33,795 nucleotides of DNA from Candidatus Paralachnospira caecorum (GTDB taxonomy: Bacteria > Bacillota > Clostridia > Lachnospirales > Lachnospiraceae), in assembly GCA_904379015.1 (NCBI GenBank), contig CAJFHG010000032.1, positions 1-33,795 of the forward strand. The letters are read 5' to 3'. The notes beneath the pieces are model-generated. The model saw nothing but the letters and a program-made list of their open reading frames with translations. It was not told where the DNA came from and did no database searches. The position numbers and the translations under genes are program-made. Below, piece after piece: positions 11,282 to 31,167 of this stretch (within the stretch, counting starts at the first letter, position 1; each line of letters opens with the position of its first letter).

Positions 11282-12742
11282 TTATTTGCTCTTTTCCTGA
11301 GCGGCCAGTCTGGCCTTTCTGCTGAACCAGACTCCTTTGCCGGTGACGGGGGAACCGTCTGTCTTAAATACCGCAAAGCCGGTGATGGCATAGATGATCG
11401 CGAATACCGGGCAGAGAATGGGCAGGAAGGAATAGGGAAGCGACTGGAGGGTGGGCACGCCCAGCACGCCGGATGTATAGATGGCGGCCATGGACCAGGG
11501 CACCAGGAATGAGAAAATGGTGCCGCCGTCCTCCAGTGTTCTGGAGAGCACGTAGGGAGCCACATCTGCTTTTTTGTAGGATTCCTTGAAGATCTCACCG
11601 GGAAGCAGGATCGCCACATACTGGCTGGCAGTCAGGATGACGGTCAGCAGGCAGGTAAACAGGGTTGTGAGCACCAGCGGACCGGGCTTTCTGACCAGCG
11701 CTTCCAGTCTGTCGAGGATGGCTGTCAGTACGCCCATTCTCTGCAGCAGCTCTCCGAAGGCAAGGCAGAGCAGAGAGAGGGATACGGTCGTCATCATGCT
11801 GGAAATACCGCCGCGGTTGAACAGGGTGTTCAGCATGTCGTTGGAGAATTCCCCGCTGAATCCGGTTGCCATGGAATTCAGGATTGTTGCGATACTGAAC
11901 TGAGGCTGAGCGAAAAATGCCACAACGATGCCTGCGATGGTTCCGGCCAGCAGAGCCAGGAAGGAGGGAACCTTCTTGACGGCCAGCAGGATCGTCAGGA
12001 CCGGGATCAGCAGCAGGAAGGGAGAAACGTTGAAGGTTTCCGTGATGCCTGCCGAGATAGCCGCAACATTTCCCATATCGGTGCTGGCAGAGCTGTGCTG
12101 GAAGCCCAGGATAAAGTACAGGACTGCCGCAATCAGTGTAGCGGGAACCGTGGTCCACAGCATGGATTTGATATGAAGGAAAATGTCGGTTTCAGCCGCT
12201 GCGGGCGCCATGTTGGTGGTGTCCGAGAACGGGGACATCTTGTCGCCGAAGATGGCGCCGGAGATGACCATGCCGGCGGTCAGGGCAGGATTGATCCCCA
12301 GTCCGCTGCCGATTCCCATAAAGGCCACGCCGAGGGTACCGGCTGCCGTGTAGGAGCTGCCGGTGAAAAAGGATACGATACAGCAGATAATGAAGCCAAC
12401 CAGCAGGAAGTAGGATGGAGACAGGATCTGAAGACCGTAGTAAATAATGGAAGGGACAACGCCGGATACGATCCAGGAGCCCACGACCATGCCGACGCTC
12501 ATCAGGATCAGGATGACCAGGATGGCTTTTCGGCAGCCGGCCAAAATGATCTCCTGAACCTCTTCCATAGAAAAACCGATACACAGGGCGATAATGGCCA
12601 TAGCCACCAGTACCAGGGCGAATACGGTGACGGTGGAGAGTCCCAGCACAGCCAGGCCCACTGCCATGATGGCCACCATGACGAGCAGGGTGAAGAGCGC
12701 CATGGGAAGCCCCATCTTGCCTTTTACTTTTTCTTTACTCAT
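11282..12742 (-). CDS. NhaC-family antiporter-type carrier, probable lysine or related amino-acid transporter
   Basis: A 486-residue membrane protein with about 11-12 hydrophobic helices. Family marks of NhaC-type sodium/proton antiporters are present: GSSYTAAGTLGVAFMGIG, the acidic GAIFGDKMSPFSDTTNMAPA stretch and the late TASQYVAILLPGEIF helix. The ATG follows AAGGAGG and overlaps the hyuB stop as ATGA, so it is the last gene of a three-gene operon. NhaC-family carriers under lysine riboswitches have been predicted to be lysine transporters (LysW). The leader upstream of hyuA reads as such a riboswitch, so lysine or a lysine derivative is a likelier substrate than plain sodium/proton exchange (inference). 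Confidence 0.85.
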   Translation of the reverse strand: MSKEKVKGKMGLPMALFTLLVMVAIMAVGLAVLGLSTVTVFALVLVAMAIIALCIGFSMEEVQEIILAGCRKAILVILILMSVGMVVGSWIVSGVVPSIIYYGLQILSPSYFLLVGFIICCIVSFFTGSSYTAAGTLGVAFMGIGSGLGINPALTAGMVISGAIFGDKMSPFSDTTNMAPAAAETDIFLHIKSMLWTTVPATLIAAVLYFILGFQHSSASTDMGNVAAISAGITETFNVSPFLLLIPVLTILLAVKKVPSFLALLAGTIAGIVVAFFAQPQFSIATILNSMATGFSGEFSNDMLNTLFNRGGISSMMTTVSLSLLCLAFGELLQRMGVLTAILDRLEALVRKPGPLVLTTLFTCLLTVILTASQYVAILLPGEIFKESYKKADVAPYVLSRTLEDGGTIFSFLVPWSMAAIYTSGVLGVPTLQSLPYSFLPILCPVFAIIYAITGFAVFKTDGSPVTGKGVWFSRKARLAAQEKSK

Positions 12743-14409
12743 GCGTTTTCCTCCTTTATTGCAGCCGGATAACAGGTTTTCATGGTTTCCAGGCTGATTT
12801 TCCCTTCTTCATAATCCCGGCGGACCTTTTCAGGATCCTGTTCGGCCGGATCGCCGTAGCCGCCGCCGCCGGCAGAGACAAGTGTCACAGTGTCTCCCGT
12901 CTGGAGCGGAACATTGCGGACCTTGTTCTGTTCATTGATCTTCACGCCGTCGTGGCGGATGTCCAGATAAGAGGTAGCGCCGCCGAGACCGCCCATGAGG
13001 CCCCAGGGCTTCGTGCGGCTCCGCTCCGTGGAAGCGGCGGCCAGCATGGTATCATGGCTCTCATCCAGAATACAGATGGTCCTGCGGATCCCCAGGCCGC
13101 CGCGGTATTTGCCGGGGCCGCCGCTGTCCTCCTCCAGGGCATATTCCTTCACCAGGAGCGGATATTCCATCTCCAGGGATTCAATAGGCAGATTGGATGA
13201 GTTGGTCATATGGACCTGGACCGCATCCAGTCCGTCCTTGTTGTAGCGGGCGCCGTTTCCGCCGCCGATGGTTTCCACATATACGTAAGGCTTGCCGGAG
13301 CGCGCATCCTGTCCGGCAATGCTGAAAAAGGTGACAGCGCCGCATCCGGCCGCGATCACGTTTTCCGGATTGATTTTCGCGAACGCGCCGAAGATCACAT
13401 CAGCCAGACGCTGGGTGGTCGTTTCTCTGTCGAAGGTGGGCGCGGGTTCGCTGGCGCATACGATGGTGCCGGGATCGGCCTTGACTTCGATGCTGTCAAA
13501 AAATCCGGAGTTGGCCGGAATGGTTTTGTCAAGCAGGCATTTCACGGAATAGTAGACGGTGGCCAGAAGAGCGCTGCGGACACAGTTGTAAGGCCCCGTC
13601 ACCTGGGGATGGCTTCCGGAAAAATCAAACAGGATGTGATCGCCGGAAATACATACCTTCACCCGAATCTGGATGTTTTCATTTCCGTTCCCGTCGTCGT
13701 CCAGGATATCCTCGAATGCATATTCTCCGTCGGGCAGGGCCTGAATGGCGGTCCGGGCTTTTTTCTCTCCGTATTTGAGCCATTCCCGGCAGAACTCGAA
13801 ATAAGTGTCCAGTCCGATTTTCCGGCAGAGCTCGATGACCTTGTCGGCGCCGAACTGGTTGGTGATGAGCTGCGCCTGGATGTCGCCCCGGCGTTCTTCC
13901 TTGAGCTGATAATTCAGAAGGATCAGATCATAGATATCCTGATTGAGCTTTCCTTTTTCGTAAAGCTTGACTACGGGAATGCGCAGTCCCTCATCGTAAA
14001 TGGTCGGCCCTCTTCTGGACCGGTCCGCGTGGTGCCCGTTGTTGACTACGAAGGCAATCAGCTTTCCTTCATAGAAAACAGGCTTTACCAGAGCAATGTC
14101 AGGAAGATGGGACCCGCCGCCGCTGTAGGGGTCATTGGCGATGAATACATCCCCGTCATAGATTTCCGATTTGTCCCAGCGCTTCAGCGCTTCCTCCACA
14201 GCTCCGAAGAGGGAACTGAAGTGGATCGGAATATGCTGGGCCAGGGAAAGGACTTTCCCGTCGGCGTCAAAGATGGCCACGGACAGATCCTTCCGTTCTT
14301 TGATGTTGGTGCTGTAGGCTGTTTTGGTCAGGATCACGCCCATCTGCTCCGCGATGGAAAGAAGGCCGTTGCTGATGACCTCAAGGGTGATGGAATTAAT
14401 GCTGCTCAT
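12739..14409 (-). CDS. hyuB: Hydantoinase/oxoprolinase family protein, B subunit
   Basis: A 556-residue HyuB-type subunit. It works with HyuA in ATP-dependent opening of cyclic amides such as 5-oxoproline or N-methylhydantoin; acetone carboxylase subunits are relatives. Seen in sequence: the start SITLEVISNGLLSIAEQMG, the FIANDPYSGGGSHLPDIALVKPVF segment, NNGHHADRSRRGPTIYDEG with clustered His/Asp, and the C-terminal EEDSGGPGKYRGGLGIRR block. All are family hallmarks, with no break. AGGAGG precedes the ATG. It overlaps hyuA by 14 bases and nhaC by 4, so the three proteins are made together. The substrate is not readable from sequence. Confidence 0.93.
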   Translation of the reverse strand: MSSINSITLEVISNGLLSIAEQMGVILTKTAYSTNIKERKDLSVAIFDADGKVLSLAQHIPIHFSSLFGAVEEALKRWDKSEIYDGDVFIANDPYSGGGSHLPDIALVKPVFYEGKLIAFVVNNGHHADRSRRGPTIYDEGLRIPVVKLYEKGKLNQDIYDLILLNYQLKEERRGDIQAQLITNQFGADKVIELCRKIGLDTYFEFCREWLKYGEKKARTAIQALPDGEYAFEDILDDDGNGNENIQIRVKVCISGDHILFDFSGSHPQVTGPYNCVRSALLATVYYSVKCLLDKTIPANSGFFDSIEVKADPGTIVCASEPAPTFDRETTTQRLADVIFGAFAKINPENVIAAGCGAVTFFSIAGQDARSGKPYVYVETIGGGNGARYNKDGLDAVQVHMTNSSNLPIESLEMEYPLLVKEYALEEDSGGPGKYRGGLGIRRTICILDESHDTMLAAASTERSRTKPWGLMGGLGGATSYLDIRHDGVKINEQNKVRNVPLQTGDTVTLVSAGGGGYGDPAEQDPEKVRRDYEEGKISLETMKTCYPAAIKEENA

Positions 14410-16456
14410 CTGCCGTTCCTCCTGTTCTGGTAATGATCATGTTGAAATATTCATCCACTACGGCCTTCTGGTTTTTCAGAACGATGGTGGTGGAATCCAT
14501 CTGCTCGATGATGGCAGGGCCGGTGATCACATTGCCGCAGTGAAGCTTTTCCCTGTCGTAGAGAAGATATTTTTCGCGGCTTCCGTCCTCCATGAGCACC
14601 ATACGGCTTCCGATCAGAGCGCCGTCCGCGCTCTCGCCCACATAGTCCTCCCGTTCAATCTGAGGCTTGCTGATCTGACCGATGGCGGAAAGACCGAAGT
14701 TGACAATCTGAATCTCATCCGCGGAAGAGTAGGAATAAAGCCGCAGGTAGGTCTCCGTGAACCGGTCCATGAGCTTCTCGATGGAATCAATGGTCTTGTC
14801 GAAGGAAACAACGATCTCGTAGTTCTGTCCCTTATAGCGCATGTCAAGATAATATTCAAGCTGCCGGTTTTCCGTCGGGATCTGTTCCTTGTCGAACCAA
14901 AGAGCAGCCTCTTTTTCCAGCCGCCGGTACATATCGGTGATGGCGGAAAAGGGTGTGTGGTTCAGATCCATCACAGTGGTTTGCACAAAGTCGCGGCGCA
15001 TATCTTCTGTGAGCAGGCCGTAGGCGGCCAGGAGGCCGGGGGCCTTGGGGATAATGGCCGTGGACATATTGAGTTCCTCGATGAGCTCAGCCGCGTGAAG
15101 CGGTCCGGCGCCTCCGAAGGCAACCAGGGCAAAATCGGAGGGATTATAGCCCTTTTCCACGGTCACGTTCTTGATTTCCTTGACAATGTTGGAGTTGCCG
15201 ACGGTGATGATGCCCCGGGCAGTCTCCTCCACGTTCATGCCGATCTTTCCGGCCAGCTTTTCCACTGCCTGGAAGGAAAGACTGGAATCGATGGGAAGCT
15301 GTCCGCTCAGCAGCTCTTTGTTGTTCAGATGGCCGAGTACCACCCGCGCGTCAGTGATGGCAGCCTCTGTGCCGCCCCGGGCGTAGCAGGCGGGACCAGG
15401 CTCCGCGCCGGCACTCTGGGGTCCGACCTTCAGGATGCCGCCGGAATCGATCCAGGCGATGCTTCCGCCGCCGGCTCCGATGGTAGAAATATCGATGGAA
15501 GGAATCCGGACCGGGTATCCGCTGATGTTCTTGTCTTTGGAGCTTTCGATGTTCCCGTCCACGATCATGCTGATGTCGGTGCTGGTGCCGCCTACATCAA
15601 TGGTGATCACATTTTTGACGCCGATGAGATTCATCAGGTACTGAACGCCGATGACACCAGCGGCAGGTCCGGAAAGTCCGGTTTTGATGGGATAGGCCGC
15701 CGCCTCGCGGATGGACATGAGACCGCCGTTGGAATGGTTGATATAAACCTTCTTGATGCCGATCTGTTCCAGCGTGTTTCTTAAATTGTCCAGATATTTC
15801 TTGACCTCCGGTCCTACGAAGGAATTCAGCACGGTGCCGCAGAGACGCTCAAATTCGCGGAACTGATTGGAAATCTCGCTGGAGGTGGAAATATAGATCC
15901 CGGGAAGATGCTGTTCGATCAGCGCCTTGACCCGGCTTTCATTTTCCGGATTCAGGTAGGCGTTAAGGAACAGGACGGCCACAGCCTCGGCCTTTTTTTC
16001 CTTCAGCTTTTCAATCAGAGCAAGAATCTCCTCGTCGCTTAAAGCTTCCAGGATCTCTCCTTTGTAATTCATGCGTTCCGTCAGCTCAAAACGCAGATCT
16101 CTGGGGATCAGGACCGGAGCCTTGTCCATCTGCAGATCATAGAGGTCCGGACGTTTCTGACGGCCGATCTCCAGAAGATCCCGGAACCCTTTTGTAGTGA
16201 TCAGCGCGGTGCGGGCGCCCCTTGATTCCAGAATGGCGTTGGTGGCCACGGTGGTTCCATGGATAAAACGGTCCACATCCTCATAATCCAGTCCGTATTT
16301 TTCCACAATTTTCCGGACGCCGCCCACCACGGCCTGGGACTGGTCCTTCAGAGAAGACGGAAGCTTGTAGACCATCAGTTCGCCGGTCGCTTCGTCTATG
16401 GCGCAGATGTCGGTATTGGTGCCGCCCACGTCAACACCGATTCGTATTTTTTTCAC
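14396..16456 (-). CDS. hyuA: Hydantoinase/oxoprolinase family protein, A subunit
   Basis: A 686-residue HyuA-type ATP-binding subunit of the ASKHA fold. Two phosphate loops are visible, RIGVDVGGTNTDICAID at the N-terminus and ITIDVGGTSTDISMI near residue 295. HGTTVATNAILESRGARTALITT and the FGGAGPLHAAELIEEL block are also present. It activates the cyclic substrate with ATP for ring opening with HyuB. The start is a GTG at 16456 behind GAGAGGAGA. It is the first gene of the operon and sits behind a leader of about 380 nt carrying a lysine-type aptamer and a terminator, so expression is probably switched off by lysine. Known relatives act on oxoproline, hydantoins or acetone. Confidence 0.94.
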   Translation of the reverse strand: MKKIRIGVDVGGTNTDICAIDEATGELMVYKLPSSLKDQSQAVVGGVRKIVEKYGLDYEDVDRFIHGTTVATNAILESRGARTALITTKGFRDLLEIGRQKRPDLYDLQMDKAPVLIPRDLRFELTERMNYKGEILEALSDEEILALIEKLKEKKAEAVAVLFLNAYLNPENESRVKALIEQHLPGIYISTSSEISNQFREFERLCGTVLNSFVGPEVKKYLDNLRNTLEQIGIKKVYINHSNGGLMSIREAAAYPIKTGLSGPAAGVIGVQYLMNLIGVKNVITIDVGGTSTDISMIVDGNIESSKDKNISGYPVRIPSIDISTIGAGGGSIAWIDSGGILKVGPQSAGAEPGPACYARGGTEAAITDARVVLGHLNNKELLSGQLPIDSSLSFQAVEKLAGKIGMNVEETARGIITVGNSNIVKEIKNVTVEKGYNPSDFALVAFGGAGPLHAAELIEELNMSTAIIPKAPGLLAAYGLLTEDMRRDFVQTTVMDLNHTPFSAITDMYRRLEKEAALWFDKEQIPTENRQLEYYLDMRYKGQNYEIVVSFDKTIDSIEKLMDRFTETYLRLYSYSSADEIQIVNFGLSAIGQISKPQIEREDYVGESADGALIGSRMVLMEDGSREKYLLYDREKLHCGNVITGPAIIEQMDSTTIVLKNQKAVVDEYFNMIITRTGGTADEQH

Positions 16457-16540: not shown

Positions 16541-16575
16541 AAAAAAACCATGTGCGGTGGTATATGCGCACATGG
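16541..16575 (-). terminator. Intrinsic terminator in the hyuA leader (riboswitch expression platform)
   Basis: Read on the minus strand, CCATGTGCG (16575-16567) pairs perfectly with CGCACATGG (16556-16548) and is followed by seven T (16547-16541). It lies after the aptamer and 85 bases before the hyuA GTG, where a transcriptional riboswitch would place its off-switch. Confidence 0.88.
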
Positions 16576-16686
16576 CTGTCGATCCGTTTTATTCTGATTA
16601 CGTTCCGGCTGCGTTACCCGGAAGCTGATTTCCTTGTCCTTTTGTATGATGTTGTTTTTCTGTCGTCCAATTCAATCCTGCCTCCA

Positions 16687-16836
16687 GGTATAGATAGTGC
16701 TCTTCTGGAATTTGGCGGATCCCAGAAACAGTCTTACACCTGTTCGATGTAAGCCCAAGCAGATATGCTTTCGGCGGATTTCCCTTTCCCGGCTGTGATA
16801 ACCGGTACTGATGATTTCCGCGCCCCTATATATACC
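16687..16836 (-). ncRNA. Lysine riboswitch (L box) aptamer upstream of hyuA-hyuB-nhaC
   Basis: On the minus strand the outer helix P1 is GGTATATATAG (16836-16826) with CTATCTATACC (16697-16687), one mismatch. Between them, in order, lie L-box landmarks: GGGGCGCGG, ATCATCAGTA, GGGAAAGGGA, CCGCCGAAAGC, TGCTTGGG, AGACTGT and AGAGCACTATC. These follow the order and spacing of lysC-type leaders. A helix CTTACATC/GGTGTAAG and a helix TTCTGG/CCAGAA fit P4 and P5. The third arm is very short. With the promoter just upstream and an intrinsic terminator downstream, lysine binding should stop transcription before hyuA. The 529-base gap between hyuA and rpsT is filled by this leader, its promoter and two terminators; short open frames there look accidental. 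Confidence 0.87.
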
Positions 16837-16842
16837 ATGGTT

Positions 16843-16871
16843 ATTATAGCCAATGGAGAAATCAAAGTCAA
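16843..16871 (-). promoter_or_regulatory. Sigma-A promoter of the riboswitch-hyuA-hyuB-nhaC transcript
   Basis: On the minus strand TTGACT (16871-16866) and a perfect TATAAT (16848-16843) are 17 bases apart. The predicted start, about 16836, falls at the first bases of the aptamer's outer helix. Confidence 0.85.
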
Positions 16872-19877: not shown

Positions 19878-19906
19878 TTGATTTCTCCAGAAAAAACGGT
19901 TATAAT
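19878..19906 (+). promoter_or_regulatory. Sigma-A promoter of the cobalamin riboswitch-cbiMNQO transcript
   Basis: TTGATT (19878-19883) and a perfect TATAAT (19901-19906) are 17 bases apart, about 24 bases before the first helix of the riboswitch. Confidence 0.8.
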
Positions 19907-19929
19907 CGGGAACAACAGCAGTGATAATA

Positions 19930-20079
19930 CATTCAGAGACGAGGAAGCAGGTGAGAATCCTGCGCAATGCCCGTTGCTGTATGAGTCGAGCGGCGGCCCG
20001 GTATGCCACTGTGCACGGATGCATGGGAAGGCGGCGCTGCGGCGTATGAGACTTGAGCCAGAATATTCAGCTCTGAATG
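19930..20079 (+). ncRNA. Cobalamin (B12) riboswitch aptamer upstream of cbiMNQO
   Basis: The closing helix is CATTCAGAG (19930-19938) with CTCTGAATG (20071-20079), a perfect 9 bp. Between them, in order, are the cobalamin-riboswitch landmarks GGTGAGAATCCTGCGCAA, TGCCCG, CTGTATGAGTCG, TATGCCACTG, GGGAAGGCGGCGCT and the B12-box-like GAGCCAGAATATTCAGC. Bound cobalamin should lower expression of the cobalt transporter behind it. The 382-base stretch between spoIIP and cbiM holds a hairpin, the promoter, this aptamer and a translation-control helix; short open frames there look accidental. Confidence 0.88.
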
Positions 20080-20129
20080 GATTTGAAAGGTTACGGGGAC
20101 ATGACCGGAAGAATGAGAAGAAGCAGATA

Positions 20130-25561: not shown

Positions 25562-27763
25562 ATGAAAAAATATGTTGCACACAAAAATGAATCAACGGGG
25601 CTCATTCAGACAGTAAAAGAACATAGCGAAAATACTGCCAGTTTATGCCGAGAATTTGCGATTCCGGAATTGAAAGATTTTTTGTATGTGATCGGACTGC
25701 TTCATGATGTCGGAAAGTTCCAGGAATCTTTCGGCAAAAGGATTAACGGAGCAAATATTAAAGTAGAGCATTCTACTTGCGGCGCGCTTGCAGCGAAAGA
25801 AAAATATGCAATACCGGATCCTATGGCACTTATGATGGAATACTGCATTGCCGGACATCATTCGGGAATCCCGGATGGCGGATTTCCAAATGATGACAGC
25901 AGTCAGTCAACACTGTGCGGCAGATTGAAAAGAGATTTTGAAGATTTCAGTGAATATAAAAATGAGCTTGCTTTACCGGAGCTGAACGGCTTAGAGTGGA
26001 TGAAGTATCTGTTTAAAGACTGTGATAATTCGATGGGGAACGTGATCGATAAGTTTGCGTTCCTTACCCGATATGCATTTTCCTGTTTAGTAGATGCGGA
26101 TTCTATTGATACAGCAGATTTTTGTAAAGAAAGAGAATTGCCCAGAAAATTATGCGCGGATTTTTCTGCCTGTCTTCAGATCGTCGATCATAAGCTGAAT
26201 TCATTTGTCTGCAAAACAGAACTCCAAAAAGCAAGAGCGGCTCTTCAAAATCAGGCGTTTCAGAATATTAAACAAGAAGCGGAAATTTATCTCCTTAATA
26301 TGCCCACAGGGAGCGGAAAAACACTTGCGAGTGTGAAAATCGCATTGGAAAGAGCTCTGGCAAAAGGGAAAAAGAGGATTATCTATATCATTCCTTACAA
26401 TAGCATTATAGAGCAGACTGCAGATGTGTTTGAGGAAATGTTTGGTGATAACTTAGAAATTCTGCGTCATCAGTCTACGTTTTCCTACGAAGATGAAGAA
26501 AATGGAAGTGAAGATTACCGGGAAGCCGCAAAGACTGCGGCAGAAAACTGGGATGCGCCCTTTATTATCACGACAGCAGTTCAGTTTTTTGAGTCCGTTT
26601 ATGCAAATAAACGGGGAAAGCTTCGCAAGATGCACAATATGTCGGACAGTATTTTGATTTTTGACGAAGCACATCTGATGCCCCAGGATTATCTGCAGCC
26701 ATGTCTTCAGGCTGTCGCATATATTACCCGATATCTGCACAGCGAAGCGATATTCTTGACAGCTACTATGCCAGATTATGAAAAATTGATGAATGAATAT
26801 GCACTTCCGGACAGCAAGATTGTGAAATTGATCAAAGATACTTTTATGTTTACAAAATTCCAGAAGTGCAGATACAGTTATATTGACGAAATATCTTCTT
26901 CTGAATTGCTTTCCAAATGCCGTGAATTTCCATCATCTTTGATTATTGTCAATAGGAAAGCAACTGCCAGAGAATTGTATCAGGAATGCGGAGGTAAAAA
27001 ATATCATTTATCTACATATATGACATCTTATGATAGAAAACGGATACTGAAAGAGATCAGACAGGAATTAAAGCGGCTTGAGGGAGATTATCCGGAATAT
27101 AAGGATGTTCCTGAGGACAGAAGGATTACAATTATTGCGACCTCTCTGATTGAAGCAGGCGTGGATCTGGATGTTTATACGGTTTTCAGGGAAAGAGCCG
27201 GACTGGACAGCATTCTTCAGGCAGGAGGACGCTGCAACCGGGAAGGAAAAAGAAAAATGGCGGATGTTTTTGTTTTTGATTTGGCAGTGGAAACGAGACA
27301 GGCGTCACTAGATGAAAAAGCGAACCTTACAAAGGGATTACTGAAGAAATATGATGATGTTTCAGATGTGAAATGTATTGAAGAATATTATTCCAGACTG
27401 TATTTTATGAAAGCAGATGATATTCAGAAAAATACTATGCATCAGGTATGTTCTGATCTGGTCTCAATTCCATTTAAAGAATATGCAGAAAAATTTGAAT
27501 TAATTGATTCCAGGCAGGTATCACTGGTGGTTCCGCGTGATGTTCAGAGTGAAAAATTAGTGGAGGTGATAAAATATACAAAGGCAGTGAATGCCAGAAA
27601 GCTGCAGAATTATACCTGTTCTGTGAGACAGAAGGAATTAGAGGATCTGATCCGACAGCACGCAGCCGATGATTATGGGACAGGTATTTACTGTTTGACT
27701 AATAAGGATTATTATGATGAATATAAGGGCGTATTATTTGAGGCATCAGATTATTTTTTATAG
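25562..27763 (+). CDS. cas3: Type I-C CRISPR helicase-nuclease Cas3
   Basis: Cas3 is recruited by the DNA-bound Cascade and degrades the target. The 733-residue protein has an N-terminal HD nuclease with H21, H48-D49 (LLHDVGK), H70 and H99-H100 (AGHHSG). An SF2 helicase follows with Walker A MPTGSGKT (247-254), DEAH at 368-371, the TATMP motif and the C-terminal QAGGRCNREG arginine motif. All expected catalytic residues appear intact. It is the first gene of a co-directional cas operon; cas5c begins 20 bases after its stop. The ribosome binding site is weak (AAAAAAGG, about 11 bases). Codon and base composition are clearly more AT-rich than the genes to the left. Confidence 0.95.
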   Translation: MKKYVAHKNESTGLIQTVKEHSENTASLCREFAIPELKDFLYVIGLLHDVGKFQESFGKRINGANIKVEHSTCGALAAKEKYAIPDPMALMMEYCIAGHHSGIPDGGFPNDDSSQSTLCGRLKRDFEDFSEYKNELALPELNGLEWMKYLFKDCDNSMGNVIDKFAFLTRYAFSCLVDADSIDTADFCKERELPRKLCADFSACLQIVDHKLNSFVCKTELQKARAALQNQAFQNIKQEAEIYLLNMPTGSGKTLASVKIALERALAKGKKRIIYIIPYNSIIEQTADVFEEMFGDNLEILRHQSTFSYEDEENGSEDYREAAKTAAENWDAPFIITTAVQFFESVYANKRGKLRKMHNMSDSILIFDEAHLMPQDYLQPCLQAVAYITRYLHSEAIFLTATMPDYEKLMNEYALPDSKIVKLIKDTFMFTKFQKCRYSYIDEISSSELLSKCREFPSSLIIVNRKATARELYQECGGKKYHLSTYMTSYDRKRILKEIRQELKRLEGDYPEYKDVPEDRRITIIATSLIEAGVDLDVYTVFRERAGLDSILQAGGRCNREGKRKMADVFVFDLAVETRQASLDEKANLTKGLLKKYDDVSDVKCIEEYYSRLYFMKADDIQKNTMHQVCSDLVSIPFKEYAEKFELIDSRQVSLVVPRDVQSEKLVEVIKYTKAVNARKLQNYTCSVRQKELEDLIRQHAADDYGTGIYCLTNKDYYDEYKGVLFEASDYFL

Positions 27764-27783
27764 AAGGAAGGGGTGAGAAAACG

Positions 27784-28512
27784 ATGAGTTATGGTTTTAA
27801 GATTATTGTGGAAGGCGATTATGCCTGTTTTACAAGACCGGAGCTTAAAGTTGAACGGGTAAGTTACGATGTACCGACGCCCGGAGCGCTTGAGGGTCTT
27901 CTGAAGAGCGTGTACTGGAAGCCTGCCATCCGTTACGTGATTGATAAGATTATTGTTTTTCAGGATATTGATTTTGTCAACATCAGAAGAAATGAAGTAA
28001 AAAATAAAGTGCTTCTTAGCGCTGTGAAGAGCCAGATGAACGGCAAAGGGGGAGACCCCTGTATCTATACTTCGGAAAGCAGAAGCCAGCGGGCTGCAAT
28101 GGTGCTGAAGAATGTAAAATATGGAGTGGAGTTTCATTTTGAATTGACCGGACTGAAAAATGACACAGAGACGGATGGAGAAAACAAACACTACAATATC
28201 ATGAAAAGAAGGCTTGAGAAGGGGCAGTGGTTCCGGACTCCATGTCTTGGATGCAGTGAATTCCCGGTGAAAAGAATCGAATTGGTAGAAGCGTTTGATG
28301 AGAGTCTCATCAGCAGTAATATTCTGAGTATGGGAGATGTGGATCTTGGATATATGAGCTATAAGGTTCAATTTGAAGACGGCGGAGAACCCATCAATCA
28401 TGACTGGGATAATCCGAAGTTCTCAGATAAGGCATTTACTCTCTATTATCGTCCGCATATGATCAATGGAGTAATTGATGTGAAAAAATACAGGGAGGAA
28501 TTGCGATGTTGA
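27784..28512 (+). CDS. cas5c: Type I-C Cascade subunit and crRNA endonuclease Cas5c (Cas5d)
   Basis: In type I-C systems, which lack Cas6, Cas5c cuts the repeat RNA and stays on the crRNA 5' handle. The 242-residue product has the RAMP start FKIIVEGDYACFTRPELKVE and the glycine-rich VPTPGALEGLLKSVYWKP segment. Y44 and the K135-H136 pair match in position the Tyr and Lys-His residues implicated in cleavage by characterised Cas5d. The ATG follows GAAGGAAGGGG. It overlaps cas8c by 7 bases. Confidence 0.93.
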   Translation: MSYGFKIIVEGDYACFTRPELKVERVSYDVPTPGALEGLLKSVYWKPAIRYVIDKIIVFQDIDFVNIRRNEVKNKVLLSAVKSQMNGKGGDPCIYTSESRSQRAAMVLKNVKYGVEFHFELTGLKNDTETDGENKHYNIMKRRLEKGQWFRTPCLGCSEFPVKRIELVEAFDESLISSNILSMGDVDLGYMSYKVQFEDGGEPINHDWDNPKFSDKAFTLYYRPHMINGVIDVKKYREELRC

Positions 28513-30308
28513 TAAAAGCCTTATGTGATTATTATGATATTTTGGCTGTTAAAGGCAGCGTTCTTCCGGCGGGATATTCTAAAGTGAATGTTCATTACAA
28601 AATTTCTCTGACTGAGGAGGGGCAGATAGACGAAATTATTGATTGCCAAAAAGTAGAGCTGGTGCCGTCAGGGAAGAAAATGAAGGAGAAAAAAGGTCCA
28701 GTAGAGATGGTGATGCCGGAGCGTACGGAAAAACCGGGAATAGACGCCAATATCGCGGAGCACCGGCCGCTGTATATTTTTGGATTAAACCTGGATAAGG
28801 ATCATCTGACGCCGGATGACAGGACAGATAAGGCAAAAAAATCACACATGGCATTTGTAAAAGCAAATCTGGATTTTACAGAAAATCTTCAGTCGCCAAT
28901 TATTTCAGCATTCAGGAACTTTCTTCTCTCCTGGAAGCCTGAAGGGCAGACGGAAAACGAATGGCTTCTGGGACTCGGAAAAGATTATCAGAAAGCAGGC
29001 TTCGCATTTTGCTTGTCCGGAGAGCCGGATCGTCTTTTGCATGAGGATCCGGAATTGAAGAAAAAGTGGGAAGAAGAATATGCAGTACAGTTGGTGAAAG
29101 ATGACAATGCCAGAACAGTACAGTGTGCTGTTACGGGAGAAACTGAGCCGATAGCAAGAATCCACAGTAAGATAAAAGGCGTATATGGCGGCCTGGCTAC
29201 GGGGAGTGTACTGATCGGGTTTAACAATGATTCAGAAAACTCCTATGGAAATGAACAGTCTTATAACAGTAACATTTCTGAGACTGCCATGAAAAAATAT
29301 ACAGAAGCTTTGAATTTTCTTCTCAGCAGTAACCGACATAAAGCGATGCTGGATGAAATGACGATTGTATTCTGGGCCATGAGCAGCAAGGATACATATG
29401 AAGACTTGTTTATGAAATTGTTTCTGGGGCAGCAGGACCAGATGGATGCTGAAAAAACAGATGCTATGCTGAAAGAGTTATTGAAGGATGCCCGTGACGC
29501 AAACGTGACGGAGGAAAGACTCCAATCGTTAAACATGATCGATTCGGATGTGGATTTTTATATGTTGGGATTGAAACCTAATTCTTCCAGGCTGTCGGTC
29601 AAATTTATCATACGAAGAAAATACGCAGATGTACTTTGGAATATTGCAAAATTTCAGAAAGATCTGCAGGTGACAGAAGAGTTTCATTCCGTGGCGCTCT
29701 GGCAGATCAAACGCGAGATGATTTCCCCCAAGAGCAAGAATGATAAGGTAAATCCGGCAGTGATGTCGAGATTGTTCGAATCGGTCTTAAATGGCGCAGC
29801 GTATCCGGTTTCGCTTTTGGAAACAATTGTCAGAAGGGTAAAAACGGATGAAGGAAACGGAAAGATCAATTCAGTACGGGCTGGTATTATAAAAGCCTGT
29901 ATCAATAACAAAAAATCAAAGGAGGAACTAAAAGTGTCACTGGATAAAACGAATCAAACACCGGCATATCTGTGCGGCAGACTGTTTGCTGTGCTTGAGA
30001 AACTGCAGCAGGATGCATCGAATAATTCGCTGAACCGGACAATCAAAGATGCATATTTTGCTTCCGCATCGGCCAAGCCGGCGCTGGTATTTCCGAAGCT
30101 GATCCGGCTTGCTCAGAATCATTTAAATAAGGTGAAATATCCGGTTTACTATAACAAACTGATTGGAGAAATTATAGATGGCCTGAACGGAGGATTTCCG
30201 GAAACACTTCGTCTGACAGATCAGGGAAGATTTGATGTCGGATATTATCAGCAGAATCAGGATTTATGGAGAAAATTAACCAAATCAGAAGAAACGGAGG
30301 AAGATTAG
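28506..30308 (+). CDS. cas8c: Type I-C Cascade large subunit Cas8c (Csd1)
   Basis: Cas8c recognises the PAM and stabilises target DNA in the I-C Cascade. The 600-residue protein begins MLIKALCDYYDILA and has the Csd1 block QCAVTGETEPIARIHSKIKGVYGG (about 200-225) and an FWAMSSKD segment typical of the family. The C-terminal helical part doubles as a separate small subunit through an internal start at 29934. It overlaps cas5c and ends one base before the cas7c ATG. Type I-C is assigned mainly from this gene, the absence of cas6 and the repeat type. Confidence 0.94.
   Translation: MLIKALCDYYDILAVKGSVLPAGYSKVNVHYKISLTEEGQIDEIIDCQKVELVPSGKKMKEKKGPVEMVMPERTEKPGIDANIAEHRPLYIFGLNLDKDHLTPDDRTDKAKKSHMAFVKANLDFTENLQSPIISAFRNFLLSWKPEGQTENEWLLGLGKDYQKAGFAFCLSGEPDRLLHEDPELKKKWEEEYAVQLVKDDNARTVQCAVTGETEPIARIHSKIKGVYGGLATGSVLIGFNNDSENSYGNEQSYNSNISETAMKKYTEALNFLLSSNRHKAMLDEMTIVFWAMSSKDTYEDLFMKLFLGQQDQMDAEKTDAMLKELLKDARDANVTEERLQSLNMIDSDVDFYMLGLKPNSSRLSVKFIIRRKYADVLWNIAKFQKDLQVTEEFHSVALWQIKREMISPKSKNDKVNPAVMSRLFESVLNGAAYPVSLLETIVRRVKTDEGNGKINSVRAGIIKACINNKKSKEELKVSLDKTNQTPAYLCGRLFAVLEKLQQDASNNSLNRTIKDAYFASASAKPALVFPKLIRLAQNHLNKVKYPVYYNKLIGEIIDGLNGGFPETLRLTDQGRFDVGYYQQNQDLWRKLTKSEETEED
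29934..30308 (+). CDS. cas11c: Internal-start small Cascade subunit Cas11c (within cas8c)
   Basis: A GTG at 29934, in frame with cas8c (codon 477), is preceded by a near-perfect ribosome binding site, AAAGGAGG at 29918-29925, with 8 bases of spacing. No such site is needed for Cas8c itself. Initiation here gives 124 residues beginning (M)SLDKTNQTPAYLCGRLFAVL and rich in helices. Type I-C systems are known to make Cas11 from an internal start in cas8c, and the size and the PAYLCGRLFAVLEKLQ opening fit that protein. Several copies line the belly of the Cascade complex. Confidence 0.85.
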   Translation: MSLDKTNQTPAYLCGRLFAVLEKLQQDASNNSLNRTIKDAYFASASAKPALVFPKLIRLAQNHLNKVKYPVYYNKLIGEIIDGLNGGFPETLRLTDQGRFDVGYYQQNQDLWRKLTKSEETEED

Positions 30309-30309
30309 T

Positions 30310-31167
30310 ATGGCACTTACGAACAGATATGACTTTGTAATGCTTTTTGATGTGGAAAATGGGAATCCAAATGGTGATCCAGATGCAGGAAACGCGCCGA
30401 GAGTCGATGCCGAATCTGGATATGGATATATTACAGATGTCTGCCTGAAACGTAAGATCAGAAATTATGTTGAGCTTGTGAAAGAGGGGGAGCCCGGATA
30501 TAATATTCTGATCAAACCGGACCGTTCGTTGAATGCTAAATTTACAGCTGCTTATGAAACAGAAGGGTTAAAGACAAAAAATAAAGGGAAAGACCCGGAT
30601 GAAGTGAAGAAGGCAAGAGATTACATGTGCCGTACCTATTATGATGTCAGAACATTTGGGGCGGTCATGTCGACCGGGGATGATCCCTGCGGAATTGTAA
30701 GAGGACCGGTGCAAATTAACTTTGCAAGAAGTATTTCACCCGTCAATATTCAGGATGTTACGATTACCCGTCAGGCACGGACCACAGAGGACAGAAAAGA
30801 GACTGGTGATACTGAAATGGGAAGAAAGAGCGTGATTCCCTATGCTCTTTACCGGGCAGAGGGGTACGTTTCCGCAACGCTGGCAAACAAATCTACCGGT
30901 CTGTCAGAAGACGATGTGGAACTTCTCTGGTCCGCAATCATAAATATGTTTGAAAATGATCATAGTGCGGCAAGGGGTAAAATGTGCATGAGAAAGCTGT
31001 ATATATTTAAGCATGAAAATGTGCTCGGCAATTGTCCGTCTCATATTCTTTTCGATAAGATAAAAGTCGAGGAAAAGAATGATGCTGTTCCAAGAGGATT
31101 TGGTGATTATGAAATCTGTGTGGACAGGGACATGCCGGCTGGTGTTGAATTGATCGAAAAAATATGA
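30310..31167 (+). CDS. cas7c: Type I-C Cascade backbone Cas7c (Csd2)
   Basis: Cas7 subunits polymerise along the crRNA spacer to form the Cascade backbone. The 285-residue product begins with the RAMP strand YDFVMLFDVENGNPNGDPDAGNAPR, the standard Csd2/Csh2 opening, and carries RTFGAVMSTG and IVRGPVQINFARSISPV downstream. Its ATG is one base after the cas8c stop, behind an ACGGAGGA site. Its end overlaps cas4 by four bases. Confidence 0.95.
   Translation: MALTNRYDFVMLFDVENGNPNGDPDAGNAPRVDAESGYGYITDVCLKRKIRNYVELVKEGEPGYNILIKPDRSLNAKFTAAYETEGLKTKNKGKDPDEVKKARDYMCRTYYDVRTFGAVMSTGDDPCGIVRGPVQINFARSISPVNIQDVTITRQARTTEDRKETGDTEMGRKSVIPYALYRAEGYVSATLANKSTGLSEDDVELLWSAIINMFENDHSAARGKMCMRKLYIFKHENVLGNCPSHILFDKIKVEEKNDAVPRGFGDYEICVDRDMPAGVELIEKI

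Follow-up and report, generated by a model that had tools for sequence, protein, structure and literature searches.

A variant lysine riboswitch in Lachnospiraceae that may address its terminator loop through the 5' strand of P1

How might a lysine aptamer pass its signal to a terminator lying well downstream of it? The question arises in a 33,795-nt stretch of DNA from Candidatus Paralachnospira caecorum (contig CAJFHG010000032.1, positions 1 to 33,795; hereafter the window), where a 298-nt leader with a riboswitch and a terminator precedes the genes hyuA-hyuB-nhaC. The features that bear on it are the following.

16843..16871, minus strand: sigma-70-type promoter, TTGACT (16871-16866), 17-nt spacer, TATAAT (16848-16843), 11 of 12 consensus matches
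16687..16836, minus strand: lysine riboswitch aptamer (RF00168), compact variant, 77.1 bits against a gathering score of 30
16826..16836, minus strand: P1 5' strand, the proposed antiterminating strand
16687..16697, minus strand: P1 3' strand
16680..16690, minus strand: 5' arm of an anti-P1 hairpin, overlapping the P1 3' strand; 11 pairs including G-U, with a counterpart in all six relatives
16615..16625, minus strand: 3' arm of the anti-P1 hairpin
16567..16575, minus strand: 5' arm of the terminator stem, CCATGTGCG; a similar stem in all six relatives
16557..16566, minus strand: 10-nt terminator loop, CATATACCAC, of which 16565-16558 is complementary to 16837-16830
16548..16556, minus strand: 3' arm of the terminator stem, CGCACATGG
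16541..16547, minus strand: U run of the terminator, seven U
14396..16456, minus strand: hyuA-like gene (hydantoinase/oxoprolinase A), best NCBIfam match caprolactamase alpha, under its curated cut-off
12739..14409, minus strand: hyuB-like gene, best NCBIfam match caprolactamase beta, under its curated cut-off
11282..12742, minus strand: NhaC-family antiporter gene, TIGR00931 above cut-off

The promoter scan returned a single site at 11 of 12 matches, and shuffled sequences averaged 1.1 sites at the looser threshold of 9 of 12. A simple terminator scan, in which loops of at most 8 nt are allowed, misses the window's hairpin. Since the -10 box ends at 16843, the transcript would start at ~16838-16835, probably at G16836 or 1 to 2 nt upstream, which makes the P1 5' strand the first bases transcribed. 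The original prediction had proposed that this strand is complementary over 8 bases to the terminator, and its letters and coordinates proved exact: TGGTATAT (16837-16830) forms 8 pairs with its exact complement ATATACCA (16565-16558). The target had been described as the loop plus the inner part of the terminator, and this needs correcting, as ATATACCA lies entirely in the loop (16566-16557). T16837 may be untranscribed; with a start at G16836, the match therefore has 7 pairs rather than 8. Among the Watson-Crick helices of the 298-nt leader, the match ranks second, the longest being the 9-bp terminator stem. At least 8 contiguous pairs were reached with a shuffled loop at p=0.001 (at least 7 pairs, 0.009), and at least 8 pairs anywhere in the dinucleotide-shuffled 139-nt post-aptamer stretch at p=0.007 (at least 7 pairs, 0.0415). 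An unspecified 8-bp match anywhere in the leader is not rare, with one or more found in 30% of shuffled leaders.

The idea that lysine controls such a pairing came with no means of releasing the 5' strand from P1. In our models the predicted relay depends for this on the anti-P1 hairpin, which had gone unnoticed and which claims the 3' strand of P1, leaving its 5' partner free. The hairpin competes with P1 and never touches the terminator, with no overlap between the two in any of seven leaders (the window's and those of six relatives), and we found no recurring link between aptamer and terminator other than the 5' strand. Because the freed 5' strand is also the only recurring path that we found from hairpin to terminator, we read the leader as a two-step relay, that is, a transcriptional lysine OFF switch acting via the P1 5' strand on the terminator loop, and we hold this reading to be somewhat more probable than an even chance. 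With lysine bound, P1 would retain both of its strands and the terminator would fold. Without lysine, the anti-P1 hairpin just downstream would capture the 3' strand of P1, and its 5' strand, set free, would pair with the terminator loop and part of the 5' arm as these leave RNA polymerase. This pairing would hold back the terminator hairpin until the polymerase has read on into hyuA-hyuB-nhaC. The OFF sign, lysine as the ligand, and a delay of termination in the cell are the elements of the relay that we infer.

We looked for the same arrangement in relatives. This HyuA is encoded in 7 of the 11 genomes of the genus, the window's included, and the six others share 87-91% identity with it; all near-complete HyuA relatives (87-91%) fall within the genus. 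In these six relatives (L004-L009), a lysine riboswitch scoring 65.8-74.1 bits against RF00168 stands before HyuA, and hyuB and nhaC follow it. In all seven leaders the promoter hexamers are kept, the 5' strand of P1 is of type GGTATAYATRGGGG, its 3' strand can form the anti-P1 hairpin, and the terminator loop measures 9-10 nt. The linker from the anti-P1 hairpin to the terminator is poorly conserved across the leaders in both sequence and length, and for that reason we did not adopt it as the antiterminator. The parts of the relay and their recurrence in relatives, like the predicted order of folding given below, follow from sequence and computation.

Pairing of the first 12 nt of each leader with its terminator loop was assessed with RNAduplex, with p values taken from shuffles. 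Strong in-loop pairing was found in six of the seven leaders (-7.9 to -9.9 kcal/mol, p 0.0016-0.011), namely the window (-8.2 kcal/mol, p 0.0022), L004 (-7.9, 0.011), L005 (-9.4, 0.0046), L006 (-9.9, 0.0016), L007 (-9.9, 0.0058), and L009 (-9.9, 0.006). L008 is the exception, with a loop duplex of -3.6 kcal/mol (p 0.51); in this leader the strand meets the 5' arm of the terminator instead, ACAUGG pairing with CCAUGU (-12.6 kcal/mol, p 0.013). The original interpretation is partly supported: the proposal that the P1 5' strand is an antiterminator withstands a conservation check within one genus, the strand being predicted to pair with the terminator half in all seven leaders and strongly within the loop in six, but it has to be widened for L008, where the predicted pairing lies in the 5' arm. 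In the window, L005, L006, L007, and L009, no post-aptamer site suits the 5' strand better than the region of the terminator loop; sites that score better than the loop occur in the terminator 5' arm in L004 and in other places in L008. In L008 (5706-5955), a better match to the 5' strand (-17.3) was also seen beyond the terminator, ~50 nt past the point where the 5' arm of the terminator begins.

When strands were swapped between leaders, the 5' strands of L004-L007 and L009 did as well on the window loop as the strand native to it. The L008 strand reached -5.1 to -5.6 kcal/mol on the loops of L005, L006, L007, and L009, versus -9.4 to -9.9 for their own strands, and on the L004 loop it reached -9.7, which beats L004's own -7.9. 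These swaps revealed no general species-specific match of strand to loop among the seven leaders, nor was a compensatory double change of 5' strand and loop demonstrated among them. As members of a single genus, the seven leaders are not independent cases; the pairing has been retained in them through moderate divergence, which falls short of independent proof. A covariance search with the orthologous aptamer as model (R1) was run on 397 genomes of the family, 315 of which had no match. Two genus members, G008 and the window's genome, scored 173.2 and 147 bits, no other match exceeded 56.5 bits, and a third genus member (G003) was without a match. In the DNA scanned, three further HyuA-relative loci (L037, with 70% identity over 203 residues, L010, and L011) showed no lysine riboswitch above the gathering score; this RNA-family scan covered 9 of the 37 HyuA-relative loci.

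An ordinary strand exchange, in which the P1 3' strand or the linker serves as antiterminator against the terminator stem while the match of the 5' strand merely reflects an AU-rich P1 and loop, would be the conventional explanation of such a leader. To place the seven orthologs among other lysine riboswitches, we surveyed 85 of them: 61 of 64 places from 61 genomes (the seven orthologs included; omitted were G052:C11, G016:C132, which scores 46 bits at a contig end, and one of two places in G049:C4) and 24 loci from the R1 search. The latter had yielded 30 loci, of which two are orthologs; from the other 28, 24 were added and three duplicates and one partial match (L137) were dropped. A terminator was found in 73 of the 85 (the 7 orthologs and 66 others) and none in 12, by a finder that is rough; the ends of the 24 aptamers added from the R1 search, which were set from R1 and trimmed by 9 nt, are rough too. 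Strand exchange is the commonest layout in this set, as at least four pairs between the P1 3' region and the terminator half are predicted in 43 of the 66 others. B. subtilis lysC itself uses the P1 3' strand. However, this usual OFF platform is found in none of the seven orthologs. Conversely, the 5' strand has at least six expected pairs on the terminator half in 7/7 orthologs versus 8/66 others, the loop duplex is -7.5 kcal/mol or lower in 6/7 versus 1/66, and loops of 9-10 nt occur in 7/7 versus 4/66, with 55 of the 66 having loops of 3-5 nt. The one locus outside the group with such a loop duplex, L056 (G039:C25), pairs its terminator loop with the P1 5' strand at -9.6 kcal/mol (shuffle p 0.005), either by chance or as a second case.

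In favor of a by-product, AU repeats pair easily, and shuffling the loop within the whole leader reached the observed gain in 6-35 of 60 shuffles for five of the seven leaders (6 in L004, 12 in L005, 11 in L007, 35 in L008, and 13 in L009). Only the window (0 of 60) and L006 (3 of 60) stand out in this comparison, which is weak for most leaders taken singly. Since the 3'-region pairing is absent from every ortholog and the linker varies, we consider strand exchange unlikely, and keep to the relay through the 5' strand.

A second question is which part of the terminator the 5' strand meets, and whether that contact excludes the terminator at all. The original prediction took the two pairings to be mutually exclusive. 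With P1 this stands, by shared bases; with the terminator stem no bases are shared, and exclusion would come from topology and from 1-9 extra pairs with the 5' arm of the terminator in the antiterminator models. We accordingly rejected exclusion of the stem by the loop match alone, and the window's 7-8 pairs, all within a 10-nt loop, might leave the stem intact in a kissing-like complex. Alternatively, the P1 5' strand could make its true antiterminating contact with the 5' arm of the terminator (AUAUGG/CCAUGU type), as in L008, the loop match being secondary. Besides these modeled arm pairs and the L008 duplex, arm pairing in L006 (-9.0 kcal/mol, p 0.028) and in L004 and L005 (-7.3) speaks for it. 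Arm-only pairing does not rise above shuffles in five of the seven leaders, however (p 0.126 in the window, 0.31 in L004, 0.43 in L005, 0.30 in L007, and 0.67 in L009), and we judge a primary role of the arm to be improbable, more so than strand exchange.

For the relay to the loop, folding models gave a consistent order of events. When the transcript stops at the loop, every one of the seven leaders is predicted to form the anti-P1 hairpin and to place its 5' strand on the terminator half (8.7-11.6 expected pairs for the latter), and forbidding the contact between 5' strand and terminator half costs 3.2-6.4 kcal/mol. With no ligand bonus, P1 forms first (0.76-0.98 just after the aptamer) and is displaced before the terminator in six leaders; in L004 it stays at 0.73 until the loop is made, and the anti-P1 hairpin alone does not displace P1 in this model. 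At loop end the antiterminator is in place in all seven leaders, before the terminator 3' arm appears. The ligand bonus on P1 is an assumed number: at -12 kcal/mol, P1 wins at loop end and the antiterminator is gone in 7/7, and at -9 kcal/mol, P1 reaches 0.93, 0.98, 0.62, 0.28, 0.97, 0.79, and 0.96, exceeding 0.5 in six of the seven.

Full-length folds complicate the picture. Without ligand they favor the terminator in all seven leaders, together with the anti-P1 pairing (and in L004 with P1 too). Since the ligand-free full-length RNA prefers the terminator, any block would have to be kinetic. The path barrier from antiterminator to terminator was 14.8, 17.1, 12.5, 17.3, 14.9, 6.7 (L008), and 15.1 kcal/mol, versus 3.8-4.1 kcal/mol with the antiterminator helix absent; the barrier model uses nested folds and forbids pseudoknots, so these values overstate the block.

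Such full-length folds would also suit a leader with ON logic or without switching, in which the loop contact is harmless and termination constant, or in which ligand binding frees the 3' arm of the anti-P1 hairpin to act, with the linker, on the terminator; PMC2258182 mentions ON lysine riboswitches, and forbidding both the anti-P1 hairpin and the 5'-strand contact yields 1.7-13.2 predicted pairs between linker and terminator half. We regard this as very unlikely, because those linker pairs vary widely between leaders and showed by eye no element common to them, L005 and L008 make hardly any P1 when so constrained (0.4 and 1.3 pairs), and P1 and the terminator have no base in common. The freed anti-P1 3' arm was not adopted as an element acting on the terminator, as inspection by eye found nothing common to the leaders.

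Returning to the relay, we asked what its aptamer would sense. Pocket residues conserved in T. maritima (G9, G11, G12, G14, C15, G77-A81, U140, G141, G163, and C166, according to PMC3764141) were placed by the spacing of that residue list, with G114 left unplaced, and all those placed are unchanged in the seven orthologs. As the placed pocket residues are unchanged, lysine stays the likeliest ligand, judging from the sequence. The surrounding core deviates, as an alignment of the seven orthologs with 78 other lysine riboswitches revealed. At alignment position 12, A (in 78/78 others) is G in all seven, and at position 139, G (in 77/78 others) is A in all seven. The P5 base CA/UG is replaced by UU/AA (C 77, A 74, U 72, and G 76 of 78 in the others), and a P2 column with G in 70/78 others is deleted in 7/7; the ortholog aptamers are 142-159 nt long. 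In addition, alignment A10 is G in six of the seven orthologs, the window keeping A. The deviating core (16825, 16698, 16727-16726, and 16704-16703 in the window) occupies positions that are 92-100% constant in the 78 others.

By the PMC3764141 spacing, alignment A12 and G139 correspond to T. maritima A10 and position 165. The former, at the top of P1, is among the residues that PMC3764141 lists as highly conserved, and 165 is absent from that list. None of the seven orthologs has the typical A at T. maritima 10 and G at 165, the latter being typical by the present alignment alone, and we have filed the aptamer as a variant on account of these two deviations. The two positions presumably face each other, so that an A.G pair would have turned into G.A. 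The changed core and the unusual genes could together point to an altered ligand and possibly a variant aptamer class. A specific version, in which a variant aptamer (A10 to G, 165 G to A, rebuilt P5 base, and shortened peripheral arms) senses a lysine-related lactam or cyclic derivative handled by HyuA/HyuB and uses the same relay from P1 5' strand to terminator loop, strikes us as a long shot. With such a core ahead of a hyuA-hyuB-nhaC operon, ligand identity becomes a testable question.

As for the genes, a lysine riboswitch stands ahead of the caprolactamase-like pair and the NhaC antiporter (window 11282-16456) in all seven genomes that have this HyuA. An NhaC-type lysW is named among lysine-riboswitch genes in PMC5584792, in which the terms terminator and hydant are absent. 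A search of the open-licence literature for "lysine riboswitch" together with "hydantoinase" gave no match.

The platform appears to be a new variant of the lysine OFF platform. It resembles B. subtilis lysC, as described in PMC6614840, in its lysine aptamer family, downstream terminator, and proposed antiterminator in the absence of ligand. Unlike most of the lysine riboswitches surveyed, it places the 5' strand on the terminator half, and its core and peripheral loops differ from those of the 78 others. The nearest described case that we found is the yxjA purine riboswitch of B. subtilis (PMC9756952), in which a transient "central helix" competes with P1 and the terminator and is prevented by ligand-held P1. 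The helix proposed here would likewise be transient, rival both, and be prevented by ligand; shared bases make it exclusive with P1, whereas its exclusion of the terminator appears in models only, through topology and a few pairs in the arm. In contrast, the yxjA central helix uses the P1 3' strand, whereas here the 3' strand would go to a separate hairpin and the 5' strand would be the signal. The env8 cobalamin riboswitch (PMC10907184, a review) similarly reads the loop of an expression-platform hairpin by pairing with the aptamer domain, there through ligand-promoted loop-loop docking (a kissing loop) over the ribosome-binding site; the pairing proposed here is a ligand-prevented one of strand and loop, on a terminator. 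The accessible part of PMC11087558 offered no closer parallel, and no P1 5'-strand antiterminator was described in the titles and abstract openings among the matches listed from the open-licence literature.

If the relay is true, a riboswitch would signal through its P1 5' strand, the first bases made, with a helper hairpin as relay and the terminator loop as target, and platform searches keyed to P1 3'-strand overlap or to a capped terminator distance would miss such switches. A covariation model that takes aptamer and terminator together for RF00168 limits the post-aptamer length to 25-50 nt (PMC13273304); the leaders described here, with 45-109 nt before the terminator begins, would probably fall outside it.

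The window holds two further features. A cobalamin riboswitch (RF00174, 68.2 bits) at 19900-20088 lies ahead of genes with CbiM, CbiQ, and ABC transporter domains. CRISPR-associated genes occupy 25562-31167 and encode a helicase with Cas3-like C-terminal and HD domains, Csd1, and Cas7, a make-up that we take to be that of a type I-C system.
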